35,212 nucleotides of DNA, from positions 1-35,212 of the IMG/VR virus record IMGVR_UViG_3300046734_000216; one strand, written 5' to 3'. The notes beneath the pieces were generated by a model that was given only the letters and a program-made list of their open reading frames with translations, did not search any database and was not told where the DNA came from. The position numbers were made by a program, and so were the translations under genes. Each line of letters opens with the position of its first letter. Positions within the stretch are counted from its first letter, which is position 1. Below, one piece after another: positions 18,935-35,212 of the stretch. This stretch comes from a virus.

Positions 18935-19540
18935 ATGGCTCTTAACTTTGCTTCCAATAATTCCTTATCAGCAATAACATCATTACCAGCATCTATTTCT
19001 GGTGGTGGTATGACTTTAATCTCAGAGCAAACTGCATCAAGTTCAGCTACAATAGATTTTACATCTGGCATAGATTCTACTTATGATTCTTATGTGTTTA
19101 AATTTATAGATATACACCCAGCGACAGATAATGCTAATTTTGAATTTAATATGAGTACAGATGGTGGTAGTAATTATAATGTTGTTAAAACTACTACTTC
19201 TTTTCTAGCAGAACATAATGAATCAGATGTTTATACAGGTTTATTTTACACTACTAATCTTGATTTAGCACAAAGCACAAATTATCAAACATTAAAAAAT
19301 TCTATTGGTTCTGGCTCTGATGAATGTGCAGTTGGAACATTACAAATATTTAATCCCTCATCAAACACATTTGTGAAACATTTTATTGCAAATATAAATG
19401 GCTATACATCTTCTGATTTTTCTCAAAATGAATATATTGCTGGTTATGGAAATACTACTAGCAGTATTGATGCTTTAAGGTTTAAAATGTCATCTGGTAA
19501 CATAGATAGTGGAGTAATAAAATTATATGGCATTAGTTAA
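18935..19540 (+). CDS. Tail fibre/tip protein, tandem paralogue A
   Basis: 201 residues, first of three tandem paralogues of about 200 residues. Shared blocks in order: IHPATDNANFEFNMSTDGGS with NYNV following, DLAQST, CAVGTLQIFNPSSNTFVKHF, YIAGYGNTTSSIDALRFKMS, SGNIDSGVIKLYGIS. The repeated beta pattern suggests a compact jelly-roll unit. Variation between copies lies mostly between the shared blocks, as expected for receptor-binding surfaces. It overlaps the second copy by 14 bases. Confidence 0.72.
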   Translation: MALNFASNNSLSAITSLPASISGGGMTLISEQTASSSATIDFTSGIDSTYDSYVFKFIDIHPATDNANFEFNMSTDGGSNYNVVKTTTSFLAEHNESDVYTGLFYTTNLDLAQSTNYQTLKNSIGSGSDECAVGTLQIFNPSSNTFVKHFIANINGYTSSDFSQNEYIAGYGNTTSSIDALRFKMSSGNIDSGVIKLYGIS

Positions 19541-20144
19541 GTATAACAACAATAGCATATCAAATGTTACTACTACTGCTTTAGCAGAGGGAAGCCTAGT
19601 ACCTATTAAAACTTTAACTGCTAGTTCTAGTTCTACATTGTCATTCGTACATGGAAGTAATGATGTAGTCTTGGATAGCACATATCCAATATATCGCTTT
19701 GAGTTTATTAACTGCCACCCGGCAACTGATAATGTTCAATTTGAATTTAATTTAAGCACAGATTCTGGTAGTAATTACAATGTTACTAAAACAAGTACAT
19801 TTTTTAGAGCATATCATAGTGAATCTTCTGGAGAAAATTTATCATATAGAACAAATAGAGATTTGGCTCAATCTACTTCAAACCAACCTTTAGTAGAAGA
19901 AATTGGAAATGACAATGACCAACAATTAAGTGGATATTTACATCTATTTAATCCATCAAGCACAACATTTGTGAAACATTTTATTTCAGTTACTAATGCA
20001 GTTGCTTCAGCAGATTATTCTACTAATGGATATATTGCTGGGTACGGAAATACTACAAATCCTGTTGATGCAATTAGATTTAATATGTCGTCTGGCAACA
20101 TAGATTCTGGTAAAATAAAACTATATGGAATAAAGGATTCATAA
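19527..20144 (+). CDS. Tail fibre/tip protein, tandem paralogue B
   Basis: 205 residues. Same blocks as copy A: CHPATDNVQFEFNLSTDSGS, FFRAYHSES, DLAQST, YLHLFNPSSTTFVKHFI, YIAGYGNTTNPVDAIRFNMS, SGNIDSGKIKLYGI. The N-terminus differs from A (ALVKYNNNSISNVTTTAL) and is similar to C. Nucleotide identity with A is high in the FVKHFI and AGYGNT blocks, showing recent duplication or recombination. Confidence 0.72.
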   Translation: MALVKYNNNSISNVTTTALAEGSLVPIKTLTASSSSTLSFVHGSNDVVLDSTYPIYRFEFINCHPATDNVQFEFNLSTDSGSNYNVTKTSTFFRAYHSESSGENLSYRTNRDLAQSTSNQPLVEEIGNDNDQQLSGYLHLFNPSSTTFVKHFISVTNAVASADYSTNGYIAGYGNTTNPVDAIRFNMSSGNIDSGKIKLYGIKDS

Positions 20145-20145
20145 T

Positions 20146-20763
20146 ATGTCTATCATTAAATTAAATAATCAAGCTGTAAAAAACGCAACTTCATTTGGTT
20201 CTATATCAAGTTTAGGCAGTATGACATTTATTAAAAAGCTAACAGCTAGTTCTTCTGCTACTTTATCTTTTGTTGATGGCTCTGATGGAGTTGTCTTAGA
20301 TAATACTTACAAGGAATACTTATTTACATTTAATAACATTCACCCTCAAACATTAGGTAGATTTCAATTTAATTTTTCAACAGATGGTGGTTCTACTTAT
20401 AATGTTACAAAAACATCAACTAATTTTAGAGCATATCACAATGAAGCTGGTAATGATAGTGGTTTAGAATATCAAGGTGCAGATGATTTAGCACAATCTA
20501 CAGCATATCAAACTCATGGTACATCTAATATTGGAAACAATAATGATGAATGTTTAAGTGGATATTTACAAATATTTAATCCATCATCAGATACATTTGT
20601 AAAACATTATATTATGAGAAATAATGTTTTAGGAAGTGATTATGGAATACAATCTTTTGTTGCTGGGTACGGAAACACTCAAAGTTCAGTTGATGCTATT
20701 AGATTTCAAATGGGTTCTGGCAACATAGATGCTGGAGATATTTGCCTTTATGGTATTGCTTAA
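20146..20763 (+). CDS. Tail fibre/tip protein, tandem paralogue C
   Basis: 205 residues. Blocks match A and B (IHPQTLGRFQFNFSTDGGST, NFRAYHNEAG, DLAQST, GYLQIFNPSSDTFVKHYI, AGYGNTQSSVDAIRFQMGSG, NIDAGDICLYGIA). The N-terminus, IIKLNNQAVKNATSFGSISS, is a typical short peptide joining phage fibres to the baseplate. It is followed by an APC-family small protein. Confidence 0.72.
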   Translation: MSIIKLNNQAVKNATSFGSISSLGSMTFIKKLTASSSATLSFVDGSDGVVLDNTYKEYLFTFNNIHPQTLGRFQFNFSTDGGSTYNVTKTSTNFRAYHNEAGNDSGLEYQGADDLAQSTAYQTHGTSNIGNNNDECLSGYLQIFNPSSDTFVKHYIMRNNVLGSDYGIQSFVAGYGNTQSSVDAIRFQMGSGNIDAGDICLYGIA

Positions 20764-30043: not shown

Positions 30044-30661
30044 ATGATTAATATACATGAAACTTTTCAAGAAACTTTACAAGGAGAGGGTTATTATACC
30101 GGTACTGCTTGTGATTTTATAAGAACTTATGGATGTCCTGTTGGATGTTATTTTTGTGATACAGGATATGAACCAGATGGAGATTATTATAACAAAAAAA
30201 TAAAAAAACATAAGAAATCTATAGAAGAACTTATTGCTGAACTAAAATCTGATCTAGTTGTTATTAGTGGTGGCGAACCATTTATTAATAAAAATTTACC
30301 ACAACTTTGTAATGAAATAATTAAGACAGGAAGAAAAGTTAGTATTGAAACTTCAGGAAGTTATTGGCAACCTATATCTGAAGATGTATTTGTAACTCTA
30401 TCCCCAAAACAACATATAAGTCCTAAATTTCCTGTATTGCAAGGCTTTTGGAGACGAGCAAATGAATTTAAATTAGTTATATCAGAGGGAAACGAATTGG
30501 ATTTTTATAAAGAACATTTAAAGAACTTTAAAGGTTATAAGTACTTGCAACCAGAATACAACGAACACTCTAAGTCTTTACAAAACTGTTTATCTTTGAT
30601 AAAGGACAATCAAGAGTTTAAATTAAGTTTACAAACTCATAAAATTATAAATGTTAAATGA
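30044..30661 (+). CDS. queE: 7-carboxy-7-deazaguanine synthase QueE (radical SAM)
   Basis: 205 residues. IHETFQETLQGEGYYTGTA precedes C31-P-V-G-C35-Y-F-C38, the C-x3-C-x2-C cluster of radical SAM enzymes, and SGGEP (75-79) follows, together diagnostic for QueE. It converts 6-carboxy-tetrahydropterin to 7-carboxy-7-deazaguanine (CDG), the branch point of the preQ0/preQ1/archaeosine pathway. First of a tight set with QueD- and FolE-like genes (ATGA overlaps). In phages this set supplies 7-deazaguanine for DNA modification. Confidence 0.93.
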   Translation: MINIHETFQETLQGEGYYTGTACDFIRTYGCPVGCYFCDTGYEPDGDYYNKKIKKHKKSIEELIAELKSDLVVISGGEPFINKNLPQLCNEIIKTGRKVSIETSGSYWQPISEDVFVTLSPKQHISPKFPVLQGFWRRANEFKLVISEGNELDFYKEHLKNFKGYKYLQPEYNEHSKSLQNCLSLIKDNQEFKLSLQTHKIINVK

Positions 30662-31104
30662 GCTTTATATCAACTAAAACTTACAATCACAGTATTGGAT
30701 TATCTTGTGCGTTCCGACAATGGAGAGCAAAACATAGTCATTGTAAATATATTCATGGTTATGCTTTATCAGTAAGATTAAATTTTAAAGGAATGTTAAA
30801 CGATAGAAATTGGGTTTATGACTTTGGCGACCTAAAATTTGTTAAGGAATTTTTAGAAGATACTTTTGATCATAAAACTGTAGTTGCAGAAGATGACCCA
30901 GAACTAGAAACTTTTAAAGAACTAGAAGAAAAAGGTTTGATACAACTTAAAATTATTCCTCATGTAGGATGTGAGAAATTTGCAGAATATATTTGCAAAC
31001 AAATAGCTACTACGATAGAAGTTAATAGTAATGAACGAGTTAAGTTAATGTCAGTTGAAGTAAGAGAACATTCAGGAAATTCAGCAATATATATTAATGA
31101 TTAA
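30658..31104 (+). CDS. queD: QueD-like 6-carboxy-tetrahydropterin synthase (T-fold)
   Basis: 148 residues. Likely converts dihydroneopterin triphosphate to 6-carboxy-tetrahydropterin. Aligned by eye with E. coli QueD, the catalytic Cys (C29 in HSHCKYIHGY), Asp71-His72 and Glu137 (VREH) are kept. Two of the three usual zinc histidines are not: the F-x-A-A-H site reads SCAFRQW, and H-G-H reads H-G-Y. Nearby H26 and H28 might compensate. The same FRQW/SHC/HGY form is, as I recall, common in alphaproteobacterial and phage QueD-type proteins. It overlaps queE by 4 bases and the next gene by 8. Confidence 0.85.
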   Translation: MSFISTKTYNHSIGLSCAFRQWRAKHSHCKYIHGYALSVRLNFKGMLNDRNWVYDFGDLKFVKEFLEDTFDHKTVVAEDDPELETFKELEEKGLIQLKIIPHVGCEKFAEYICKQIATTIEVNSNERVKLMSVEVREHSGNSAIYIND

Positions 31105-31951
31105 AAAATATTTAACTTGGGATGACTTCTTTGAACTTCTCATCCCTGTCCAAGACAAAATAACACCAGATGATATAGTTTTTGGGATTCCAAAAGGTGG
31201 AATGATTGTTTCTAATTTCTTAGAATGTAAAAAAACCCATGATCCAAATGAAGCGACTGTCATTGTAGATGATATTGTAGATAGTGGTAGAACAAAAAAA
31301 CTTCATACAGAAAACTTTCCAAAAGCTAGATTTATAACAGTAGTAGATAAACAAATTGGAAGTAAATATGATGGTTATATTGTGTTTCCTTGGGAACAGG
31401 CTGAAGAAGACGCAGAACATACTGTTGCTAAAATGATTGAACATTTAGGAGATAACCCTCTAAGAGAAGGAATAATAGATACACCCAAAAGAGTAGTTAA
31501 ATCATGGAAAACTATTTATGGTGGTTATAATCAAACACCTGAAGAAGTTTTAAAAACAAGTTTTAATGTCGATTATGATGAAATGATTATTTCTAAAGAC
31601 ATAGAATTTTATTCTACTTGCGAACATCATATGTTACCATTTTTTGGTAAAGCACATATTGCATATATTCCAAGAGCAAATGTTGTAGGACTTTCTAAAT
31701 TATCAAGATTGTTAGAAGTGTATGCAAGAAGAATGCAAATACAAGAAAGACTTACTAACCAAATAGCTGATGGAATGATGAAAGTAATGAATCCTTTAGG
31801 ATGTGGAGTTATTATAGAAGCTAAACATTTTTGTATGGTTTGCAGAGGTGTTCAAAAGAAAAACTCTACAATGATAACTTCAGCAATAAGAGGTTTATTT
31901 AAATCAGCAGAAGTTAAAAACGAGTTTCACAGTCTTTGTAGGCATAAATGA
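31097..31951 (+). CDS. folE: Phosphoribosyltransferase domain fused to GTP cyclohydrolase I
   Basis: 284 residues, two domains. Residues 1 to about 100 are a short type I phosphoribosyltransferase-like domain: GIPKGGM (30-36) as pyrophosphate loop and VIVDDIVDSGRT (55-66), the classic PRPP-binding motif. Residues about 105-284 are GTP cyclohydrolase I: CEHHMLPFFGKAHIAYIP with C175 and H178, VVGLSKLSRLLEVYARRMQI, QERLTNQIA, and EAKHFCMVCRGVQ with C246, i.e. the full zinc site. FolE makes 7,8-dihydroneopterin triphosphate from GTP, the first step to 7-deazaguanines. Stand-alone FolE lacks the N-terminal domain. One continuous frame; the fusion is not a sequencing join. Confidence 0.9.
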   Translation: MIKKYLTWDDFFELLIPVQDKITPDDIVFGIPKGGMIVSNFLECKKTHDPNEATVIVDDIVDSGRTKKLHTENFPKARFITVVDKQIGSKYDGYIVFPWEQAEEDAEHTVAKMIEHLGDNPLREGIIDTPKRVVKSWKTIYGGYNQTPEEVLKTSFNVDYDEMIISKDIEFYSTCEHHMLPFFGKAHIAYIPRANVVGLSKLSRLLEVYARRMQIQERLTNQIADGMMKVMNPLGCGVIIEAKHFCMVCRGVQKKNSTMITSAIRGLFKSAEVKNEFHSLCRHK

Positions 31952-32292
31952 AAACAACTATAGTTTGTAGATTACAAGTAGAGGGTATTCATCAATGGTC
32001 TAATTGTCCATTTGAAGATGTTAAATTTTTAAAGGACCCACATAGACATATCTTTCATATAGAATGTGAAAAGAAAGTTAACCATGATGACAGAGATGTT
32101 GAATTTATAAGATTTAAAAGAGAAATTTTAGATTATTTACATGATAAGTATTCAGATAGTGAATGTTGTAAGTTTGGAAATATGTCATGTGAAATGATTG
32201 CAAAAGAATTACTTAAAGAGTATGATCTAGAAAAATGTTCAGTTTTTGAAGATAATGAAAACGGTTCAGTAGTTTATCAATACGAGGTTTAA
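31948..32292 (+). CDS. Small T-fold-like protein, divergent QueD relative
   Basis: 114 residues, in an ATGA overlap with the FolE fusion. PHRHIFHIECEKKVNHDDRD then VEFIRFKREILDYL lines up with the IHGYALSVRLNFKG...VYDFGDLKFVKEFL part of the phage QueD, and MSCEMIAKELL plus CSVFED lines up with VGCEKFAEYICK plus VEVREH. H15, H32 and H34 could be the zinc triad and E101 matches the catalytic Glu, but Cys at the catalytic place and the Asp-His pair are missing. Similar small proteins occur in other phages, as I recall, without known function. T-fold assignment is by eye only. Confidence 0.6.
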   Translation: MKTTIVCRLQVEGIHQWSNCPFEDVKFLKDPHRHIFHIECEKKVNHDDRDVEFIRFKREILDYLHDKYSDSECCKFGNMSCEMIAKELLKEYDLEKCSVFEDNENGSVVYQYEV

Positions 32293-32293
32293 C

Positions 32294-32437
32294 ATGGCAA
32301 AAAAAACAGTATCAGCACCTAGAGGATTTCATTGGATGAAAGTTGGAAGAGGATTTAGATTAATGAAAGGTGCATACAAACCACATAAGGGAGCAGTAAA
32401 AAAAGCTAGTTTTACTGTGCAAAAAAAACATAAGTAA
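32294..32437 (+). CDS. Tiny basic protein within the modification cluster
   Basis: 47 residues: MAKKTVSAPRGFHWMKVGRG, then a KR-rich end closing in VQKKHK. Coupled to dpdA by a TAATG-type overlap. GFHWMKVGRGFRLMKG looks like a small beta-turn unit seen in other short phage proteins. A nucleic-acid-binding helper is possible; unproven. Confidence 0.55.
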   Translation: MAKKTVSAPRGFHWMKVGRGFRLMKGAYKPHKGAVKKASFTVQKKHK

Positions 32438-33243
32438 TGAAAGTTCACTTTGCTGGGCATGAAGATGTAGGAATGTCTAAGCCATTAAAAAAAGCTGGAG
32501 TTAATTATGTTCTTGGAAGTTTTTATCAAATAAGAAGATACAAAGACCAACATGCTATTGATTTTATTAAGTGTCTTAATAGTTATACTCATACTATTAT
32601 AGATTCAGGTCTATTCACATTAATGTTTGGTGCAAAAAGCCATACAGTACTTACAGAACAAATGATTATAGATTGGCAAAATGATTATGCTAATTTTGTT
32701 AACAAGACAGGATATAAACATTCAATAGTAGAATGTGATGTTCAAAAGAAAATATCTCCTGAGTTTGCATGGGAAATGAGAAAAAAATTTAAGACTCAAG
32801 TAAATGTTCCAATTATAAATGTTTATCACTTAGAAGATGAAAACCCAGATAAGCTAATTGATTATTCAGATTACATTGCTGTATCAGTTCCTGAGTTAAG
32901 ATTTAATGTATCTAATGCTGAAAGATTAAAGATAACAAGATACATAAGTCAAAAAGCTACTTCTAAAGGTAAGAAAGTACATTTGTTAGGTTGCACAGAG
33001 TTAAAAATGATGAAAGAATTTCAATATTGTTACAGTTGTGACAGTACAAGTTGGTTTTCAGGTAGTAGATTCAACAGTTTCAGATCCAAGGCTTTGCCAA
33101 ATATGGAAAAAGTCGATATAAACAAACTAAAAGAGAATAAAATTGACGAATTTAAAGATTCAAGTAAATCAACTAATGTATTCTATTGGGAGGCTTACCT
33201 AAAACTTCAGGAATACAAAAAATATGCTGGGAGCCAAGAATGA
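32437..33243 (+). CDS. dpdA: DpdA/TGT-like DNA guanine transglycosylase
   Basis: 268 residues. TIIDSGLFTLMFG (53-65) corresponds to the TGT substrate-site DSGG loop (D56), SIVECDVQ (96-103) to the second acid loop, VHLLGCTEL (181-189) to the G-x-G turn and YSCDSTSW (199-206) to the catalytic Asp loop (D202). This pattern is that of the tRNA-guanine transglycosylase superfamily branch that includes DpdA, which swaps guanine in DNA for a 7-deazaguanine base. About 100 residues shorter than bacterial TGT and without its C-terminal zinc Cys cluster, as expected for phage DpdA. Coupled to the ParB-like gene by ATGA. Confidence 0.78.
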   Translation: MKVHFAGHEDVGMSKPLKKAGVNYVLGSFYQIRRYKDQHAIDFIKCLNSYTHTIIDSGLFTLMFGAKSHTVLTEQMIIDWQNDYANFVNKTGYKHSIVECDVQKKISPEFAWEMRKKFKTQVNVPIINVYHLEDENPDKLIDYSDYIAVSVPELRFNVSNAERLKITRYISQKATSKGKKVHLLGCTELKMMKEFQYCYSCDSTSWFSGSRFNSFRSKALPNMEKVDINKLKENKIDEFKDSSKSTNVFYWEAYLKLQEYKKYAGSQE

Positions 33244-33857
33244 ACAAAGTAGAAACCATGAATATAGACAATTTAGTTAAAGCTGAATGGAACTATAAAA
33301 CAGATGGAACAGAAGAACAGATAAATAAATTAATTAAATCTATTAAATATGACGATTCTGCGGGTATATTAGCAGTAAGAAAACTAAATAATAAGTATGA
33401 GGTTATAGATGGAAACCATAGATTAGAAGCATTAAAAAGAATAGGATGGCAAGAAATTCAGGTTGAAAACTTTGGAGATATTCCAAAGTCAAAAGCCATT
33501 ATTATTGCTAGACGAAGAAATCATGTATGGTTTGATGATGACTTAAAAGCATTTAGTGATCTAATTAAGAATGATGTACTACCAGATATAGATACAGATA
33601 CATTAAAAGACATATTACCAGATACACCAGATGAGATAGATAACTTAGTTAACTTTGGTAATTTTGATTGGGAAGAACCTACTCAAAAAGAAGCTAAAGA
33701 ATCTGATGGTACTAAGACATTAACTCTAAAAATAGACGAACAAGTATATCAAATGTGGCTAGATTGGGTCAAGTGGTGTGCTGATCAAACTGATTATAAG
33801 AATGATAGTGAAGCATTTGAGTATTTAATTGTAGAGGCTAAAAATGGACAAAAGTAA
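33240..33857 (+). CDS. ParB/sulfiredoxin-fold protein upstream of small terminase
   Basis: 205 residues from ATG 33240 (ATGA overlap with dpdA); the open frame begins earlier but inside dpdA. EQINKLIKSIKYDDSAGILA, then YEVIDGNHRLEALKRIGWQE is the ParB N-terminal signature (DGNHRLEA). The second half is acidic (LPDIDTDTLKDILPDTPDE) with a helical C-terminus. No ParA and no HTH of chromosomal ParB. Phage ParB-domain proteins next to terminases are widespread; proposed roles include packaging-site recognition or nuclease/NTPase activity. It overlaps TerS by 14 bases. Confidence 0.85.
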   Translation: MNKVETMNIDNLVKAEWNYKTDGTEEQINKLIKSIKYDDSAGILAVRKLNNKYEVIDGNHRLEALKRIGWQEIQVENFGDIPKSKAIIIARRRNHVWFDDDLKAFSDLIKNDVLPDIDTDTLKDILPDTPDEIDNLVNFGNFDWEEPTQKEAKESDGTKTLTLKIDEQVYQMWLDWVKWCADQTDYKNDSEAFEYLIVEAKNGQK

Positions 33858-34988: not shown

Positions 34989-35072
34989 ATGGGTAGGATT
35001 ATGAATTATTATTTTACAGGAATGTTGATTTTAGGATTTGTATTTTTAGCTCTTTGTATGAAACCATTATGA
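34989..35072 (+). CDS. Tiny membrane peptide
   Basis: 27 residues (MGRIMNYYFTGMLILGFVFL, ALCMKPL), nearly all one membrane span. An alternative start at 35001 gives 23 residues. It ends in an ATGA overlap with the gene starting at 35069. A third single-span peptide in the genome; role unknown. Confidence 0.45.
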   Translation: MGRIMNYYFTGMLILGFVFLALCMKPL

Positions 35073-35212
35073 AAATATCTGAGAATACATCTGTAGCTAT
35101 GCCAATTAAGAACATGGTTGGTATTATCGTAGCTGTTGCTATGGGAATCTTTGCTTATACAGAAGTTACAGCTAGACTTACTTCATTAGAGACATCAAGA
35201 GAATTAATGAAC
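35069..35212 (+). CDS. Start of membrane-anchored coiled-coil protein (continues at 1)
   Basis: Contains the true ATG and the first 48 codons of the gene completed at 1-362. The first ten residues (MKISENTSVA) are read only partly at the left end because the contig starts within the ATG. The codon for Asn6 is AAT here and AAC in the left copy. Confidence 0.85.
   Translation, partial: MKISENTSVAMPIKNMVGIIVAVAMGIFAYTEVTARLTSLETSRELMN
35070..35212. repeat. Right copy of 143-bp terminal overlap
   Basis: Matches 1-143 at 142 of 143 bases; the difference at 35086 is synonymous. It proves that the window spans the whole genome plus a short overlap. Confidence 0.9.

Follow-up and report, generated by a model that had tools for sequence, protein, structure and literature searches.

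Genes of the modification locus

The DNA analysed here is the IMG/VR virus record IMGVR_UViG_3300046734_000216 (the whole stretch of 35,212 nucleotides is called the window), and our subject is an operon at positions 30,044 to 33,243 that joins genes of 7-deazaguanine synthesis to the gene of a DpdA-type transglycosylase and includes a small T-fold protein of the family phrog_17812. A sequence-only reading had placed five genes, for QueE, a QueD-like protein, a fused FolE, the small T-fold protein and the transglycosylase, in one coupled operon, and profile searches and the overlapping frames confirmed this arrangement. On the + strand, the order is QueE, QueD-like protein, a phosphoribosyltransferase (PRTase)-FolE fusion, small T-fold protein, an open reading frame (ORF) of 47 amino acids (aa) and DpdA. 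The first four frames overlap by 4, 8 and 4 bp in turn, and the 144-bp gap between the small T-fold gene and dpdA is occupied by the 47-aa ORF (32294-32437, + strand), whose TAA stop overlaps the ATG of dpdA (TAATG). The product of this ORF is basic and Lys/Arg-rich, has no assigned function, is 91% identical in the relatives L020 and L022, and is too short for ORF lists with a 60-aa minimum. When compared with a ~89% identical relative, QueE, QueD, the small T-fold gene and dpdA gave ratios of nonsynonymous to synonymous substitution (dN/dS) of 0.05-0.14, indicating that they are real genes under purifying selection.

The QueE-like radical S-adenosylmethionine (SAM) protein, a 7-carboxy-7-deazaguanine (CDG) synthase (30044-30661), matches phrog_2076 (E = 4e-33), PF04055 and TIGR04322 (E = 1e-32, under the curated cut-off of that model), and the CX3CX2C radical-SAM motif was read in its sequence. 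An alignment of seven QueE sequences was too diverse for scanning the collection. The QueD-like 6-carboxytetrahydropterin synthase (30658-31104) is of the phage 'HGY' type and matches PF01242 (E = 1e-18) and phrog_2389 (E = 2e-40). In a residue table, Cys27, Asp70-His71 and Glu110 are all present, and the zinc triad H16/H31/H33 is incomplete, with F, H and Y at these positions and two His replaced. Proteins of the 'HGY' type, in which F/Y/L and Y replace two zinc-ligand His, are common in phages, some of them QueC-annotated, and the QueD of the window has its own close relatives in phages annotated with QueC.

The third gene (31097-31951) encodes a fusion of a mini-PRTase (residues ~1-105) and a FolE GTP cyclohydrolase I (~106-284; PF01227, E = 9e-70). 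The PRTase half, of ~100 aa (31097-31417), matches phrog_8995 (E = 2e-7) and the xanthine PRTase model NF006613 (E = 7e-8) over residues 42-101, and shows an intact phosphoribosyl pyrophosphate loop, VIVDDIVDSGRTKK, plus a PWE motif. PRTases recur in phage 7-deazaguanine clusters, ranging from mini forms to full forms like hypoxanthine-guanine phosphoribosyltransferase (e.g. L005:3441-3902 and L058:6223-6795), and the fusion to FolE is seen in the clade of the window and also in loci L044, L051, L069, L074/L075 and L097.

A complete genome without QueC

The record is a complete genome with a unique length of ~35.07 kb. Positions 1-143 are repeated directly at 35070-35212 (142/143 bases, 99.3% identity), and the joined genome ends are spanned by a related contig, G001. 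A missing QueC as an artefact of a fragmentary record is therefore ruled out. Neither QueC nor Gat-QueC, which stand for the branches to 7-cyano-7-deazaguanine (preQ0), archaeosine and 7-amido-7-deazaguanine, was found anywhere in this genome, and no separate QueF was found in it. The sole QueF profile match (31637-31810) sits inside FolE and scored 31 bits against 234 bits as FolE; we therefore rejected a hidden QueF in the operon and regard the match as a cross-match. Among the larger of the remaining ORFs, Pfam scans gave no match to an amidotransferase, a formyltransferase or a methyltransferase.

The sequence-only reading had stated that no ORF shows the ATP motif of QueC and that QueF and an amidotransferase are missing too, and the profile searches agree with it. 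Its description of the locus as a CDG-forming DNA-modification cluster without QueC is likewise supported by the identities of FolE, the QueD-like protein, QueE and DpdA and by the absence of QueC. Since no QueC, no separate QueF and, among the larger ORFs, no amidotransferase was found, CDG is the last intermediate that the phage makes by known enzymes.

Fold and conserved residues of the small T-fold protein

The fourth gene (31948-32292, + strand) encodes the 114-aa small T-fold protein, a QueD paralogue and our proposed CDG-tailoring enzyme. Its family, phrog_17812, is listed in PHROGs with unknown function. The assignment to the T-fold, made earlier from the letters, was confirmed by an AlphaFold model with a predicted local distance difference test (pLDDT) score of 94.7, for which the best Foldseek match was Escherichia coli QueD (PDB 4ntk, E = 4e-5, template modelling score 0.77); a weak match was QueF-Like (PDB 5jyx). 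The family profile matches PDB 2dj6, a protein of P. horikoshii that resembles 6-pyruvoyl-tetrahydropterin synthase (E = 0.004), and hhalign aligned it with the phage QueD family with a probability of 94% (E = 1e-7).

We examined conservation in 50 non-redundant phrog_17812 members that are 32-63% identical to the protein of the window. H15, L28, H32, R49, E52, S80-C81-E82, V99, E101 and D102 are invariant in 50/50 members, and R33 and H34 are kept in 49/50. H15, H32 and H34 occupy the positions of the QueD zinc ligands (H16, H31 and H33), and E101 falls at the position of the Glu that anchors the substrate in QueD. The small protein thus has the fold, the His triad and the anchoring Glu in common with QueD and 6-pyruvoyl-tetrahydropterin synthase (4ntk, 2dj6). 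However, at ~16% identity to QueD, it differs in its conserved R33, R49, E52 and C81, and the phrog_17812 alignment contains no conserved equivalents of QueD Cys27 and Asp70-His71, the segment being deleted. Since the zinc triad and the Glu are kept while Cys27 and the Asp-His pair are gone, we regard the small protein as a QueD paralogue and not as QueD itself; it likely has metal and purine sites but a chemistry other than that of QueD.

We also considered a composite active site, built from a His-poor QueD and the His-complete small T-fold protein, and rejected it as a general rule. The same small protein is found in relatives whose QueD is classical, and QueC-annotated phages have close relatives of the His-poor QueD. 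In other phages the small T-fold domain is found in fusions, namely in Vibrio phage Bakedbeans (L006:7221-8372) with a ~260-aa domain of unknown kind and in Chryseobacterium phage MA9V-3 (L002:7461-8342) with a domain resembling endonuclease VII.

Replacement of QueC by phrog_17812 across phages

When 50 viral contigs were sampled via QueD, 48 contained QueE, 36 QueC and seven the small T-fold protein, and none contained both of the latter two. Fisher's test gave p = 3.4e-5 for this exclusion, a value that overstates independence, as the contigs here and in the sample described next are related to varying degrees. Among 75 QueD-sampled local neighbourhoods, the small T-fold protein was present in 12 and QueC in 41, again with no overlap. 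In the opposite direction, 50 records sampled via the small T-fold protein contained QueE in 44/50 and QueC over the cut-off in 2/50, both of these partial. These results indicate that phrog_17812 replaces QueC across many phages. Outside viruses, a scan of 84,980 species genomes with a single peptide pattern detected the family in six bins only, several of them with the gene beside dpdA.

The QueC-less layout is not peculiar to this phage but common to dozens of viral contigs and to named phages. Cellulophaga phage phiST, Acidovorax phage ACP17, Pseudomonas phage PA5oct, Synechococcus phage BUCT-ZZ01 and Chryseobacterium phage MA9V-3 all combine FolE, a QueD-like protein and QueE with phrog_17812, as the window does, and their whole records gave no match to QueC. 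They differ from the window in the transglycosylase. First, phiST and MA9V-3 carry another DpdA-like protein, phrog_20335. Second, ACP17, PA5oct and BUCT-ZZ01 carry a third DpdA-like protein (phrog_10773-type) and, in addition, a glycosyltransferase of family 4 (GT4). The small T-fold protein thus adjoins three distinct DpdA-like families. The most reduced case is the complete Faecalibacterium phage Roos (PP479939), in which the small T-fold protein and DpdA, encoded by adjacent genes (L001:8001-9219), were the sole pathway genes found. Its DpdA is 33% identical to that of the window, and, in contrast to the window, none of FolE, QueD, QueE and QueC was found in its genome; Roos probably depends on CDG from its host. 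Taken together, the exclusion with QueC, the three DpdA partners and the gene content of Roos place the small T-fold protein at a point that follows CDG and precedes or coincides with base insertion.

The DpdA-type transglycosylase

The last gene of the operon (32437-33243, + strand) encodes a DpdA-type DNA-guanine transglycosylase of 268 aa that matches phrog_887 (E = 7.5e-18), the family of the DpdA of Enterobacteria phage 9g. The two catalytic aspartates of tRNA-guanine transglycosylase (TGT) are kept, as D56 (in DSG; 9g D72) and D202 (in DSTSW; 9g D215), and H182 aligns with 9g H196, a residue that is conserved in 9g-type DpdA and absent from DpdA2 (PMC6884629). A profile search of the protein gave no match to Pfam TGT, and the sole PDB match of its family profile was the DNA-guanine transglycosylase 7ui4 (E = 0.005). 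The AlphaFold model (pLDDT 82) is TIM-barrel-like; a fold search with it returned pyruvate-kinase TIM barrels, which is unspecific beyond this description. Homology to 9g DpdA supports DNA, and not tRNA, as the predicted target.

Clusters for 7-deazaguanine modification of phage DNA, including that of 9g, were described by Hutinet et al. 2019 (PMC6884629). Like these, the window holds FolE, QueD, QueE and DpdA together in one cluster and shares the DpdA His (9g H196, window H182). Unlike these, it contains neither QueC nor Gat-QueC, but a small QueD-paralogous T-fold protein instead, and its FolE is fused to a PRTase.

Proposed pathway and alternatives

Based on these observations, we suggest with moderate confidence that the operon is self-contained, that the small T-fold protein is a CDG decarboxylase, and that DpdA inserts plain 7-deazaguanine into DNA. 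To judge from their families, FolE would convert GTP to dihydroneopterin triphosphate, the QueD-like protein would convert this to 6-carboxytetrahydropterin, and QueE would form CDG. The small T-fold protein would then, most likely, take CDG in the stead of QueC and strip its carboxyl group to give 7-deazaguanine, with its predicted metal site used for decarboxylation and E101 gripping the guanine edge. DpdA, if it acts as its 9g homologue suggests, would swap guanine in DNA for this base. The phage DNA would consequently bear 2'-deoxy-7-deazaguanosine and would no longer offer the contact at N7 on which many restriction enzymes depend. For the PRTase, a speculative but probable role is the recycling of the released guanine to GMP and on to GTP, the substrate of FolE. 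A PRTase is present in 37 loci, in 12 of them fused to FolE, but it also accompanies QueC (10/41 QueC loci), and we therefore rejected it as a CDG-handling enzyme bound to the QueC-less branch; recycling of guanine released by DpdA fits this distribution better than CDG tailoring.

QueF-Like, a T-fold enzyme, works on the group at C7 of preQ0, while QueD itself removes the side chain of a pterin. By analogy, these chemistries may serve as a precedent for T-fold tailoring of CDG. Cui and colleagues in 2023 reportedly described both 2'-deoxy-7-deazaguanosine and 2'-deoxy-7-carboxy-7-deazaguanosine (dCDG) in the DNA of phages and put forward DpdL as a predicted CDG decarboxylase. Its expected role, the conversion of CDG to 7-deazaguanine in QueC-less phages, is like the one proposed here, and phrog_17812 is a candidate for DpdL.

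Here, we need to consider several points that weigh against the proposed decarboxylation. First, this chemistry was picked by elimination and in view of the reported prediction of DpdL. Second, the QueD of the window is without two zinc ligands, as is the QueD of QueC-bearing phages. Third, a gene for a GT4-type glycosyltransferase, identified by Pfam Glycos_transf_1 and by PDB matches to GT4 enzymes, is present in 63 of 93 loci with the small T-fold protein (e.g. L007:6963-7991, L004:6849-7910 and L055:9184-10146) whereas 41 loci with QueC all lack it, as does the window. On plain 7-deazaguanine there is no evident handle for a sugar, so that the product may differ in the relatives with GT4, or the sugar may be placed elsewhere. 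This linkage is our main reason for keeping the chemistry of the small protein open, and some relatives may glycosylate the 7-deazaguanine base.

The same linkage to GT4, and not to QueC, speaks for an alternative that we consider unlikely, namely that the small T-fold protein acts on CDG in the place of QueC but yields a product whose C7 group is changed in another way, for example by activation or amidation, and would serve as the sugar handle in the relatives. The invariant Cys81 within the SCE motif is in keeping with this, as QueF-Like, the weak Foldseek match 5jyx, employs a Cys in its T-fold chemistry at C7. Against it, clusters without the glycosyltransferase, such as that of the window, conserve neither a second enzyme nor a domain for cofactor binding, and the glycosyltransferase is missing from many QueC-less clusters.

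It is somewhat less probable still that CDG itself is inserted, giving dCDG, with the small T-fold protein as a carrier, an inactive QueD subunit or a regulator. A genome without QueC would suit this explanation, as would the dCDG reportedly present in phages, and a pathway ending at CDG has been considered for phage Bipper (PMC6884629). However, the His triad, Cys81, Glu82, Glu101 and Asp102 remain invariant or nearly so down to 32% identity, which speaks for catalysis, and the small protein persists in Roos without QueD, QueE and FolE, indicating that it is not merely a subunit of QueD.

We regard it as quite improbable that QueC of the host makes preQ0 from CDG, that DpdA inserts this preQ0, and that the small T-fold protein is unrelated to the modification. 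Most hosts do possess QueC, and in E. coli 9g DpdA by itself puts preQ0 of the host into DNA (PMC6884629), but the mutual exclusion of QueC and the small protein in phages and its place beside three different DpdA-like types speak against this. The sequence-only reading had left open whether CDG, the product of an unknown local enzyme or a product of host QueC is put into DNA, and had listed the small T-fold protein without assigning it a role. The listing stands, the protein is now the best candidate for that local enzyme as a replacement of QueC, and the use of host QueC has become less likely. Finally, we give hardly any credence to the idea that the genes raise queuosine in host tRNA, with the 32437 product acting on tRNA: FolE, QueD and QueE are common to queuosine synthesis and DpdA is a relative of TGT, but the 268-aa protein, with no Pfam TGT match, groups with 9g DpdA and keeps its His196, the sole PDB match of its profile is a DNA-guanine transglycosylase, and neither QueC nor a separate QueF was found in the genome.

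Other genes of the phage

Downstream of the operon lies a gene for a ParB-like protein (33240-33857, + strand; phrog_723, E = 4e-15; PF02195, E = 3e-6), whose start codon, an ATG at 33240, overlaps the stop codon of dpdA. It is transcribed in the same direction and probably stands outside the pathway. The window also encodes a terminase, a portal, a head protein, a tape measure protein and a J-type tail fibre, and the phage is thus tailed, with a siphovirus-like make-up. Its tail region includes three consecutive paralogues of ~200 aa (18935-20763), all of phrog_14820 and without an assigned function.

Implications

The kind of DNA protection described here is already known; what is new is an example with a candidate QueC-replacing enzyme of putative chemistry. 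The question of which base the phage uses is reduced to one gene of 114 aa. If its product is a CDG decarboxylase, plain 7-deazaguanine comes from a very small enzyme, and the QueD fold would be shown to have been redirected from pterin chemistry to base tailoring. More widely, we can propose only tentatively, and as a somewhat doubtful possibility, that a branch of 7-deazaguanine DNA modification independent of QueC starts from phrog_17812: its T-fold enzyme would remodel the C7 position of CDG, GT4 enzymes in many relatives would glycosylate 7-deazaguanine DNA, and the PRTase of the window would recycle the guanine released by DpdA. To our knowledge, no glycosylated 7-deazaguanine DNA base has been known. 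The presence of phrog_17812 or of QueC offers a simple genome rule for predicting the modified guanine of a phage, and the findings point to a group of phages in which a glycosyltransferase is tied to the phrog_17812 branch.

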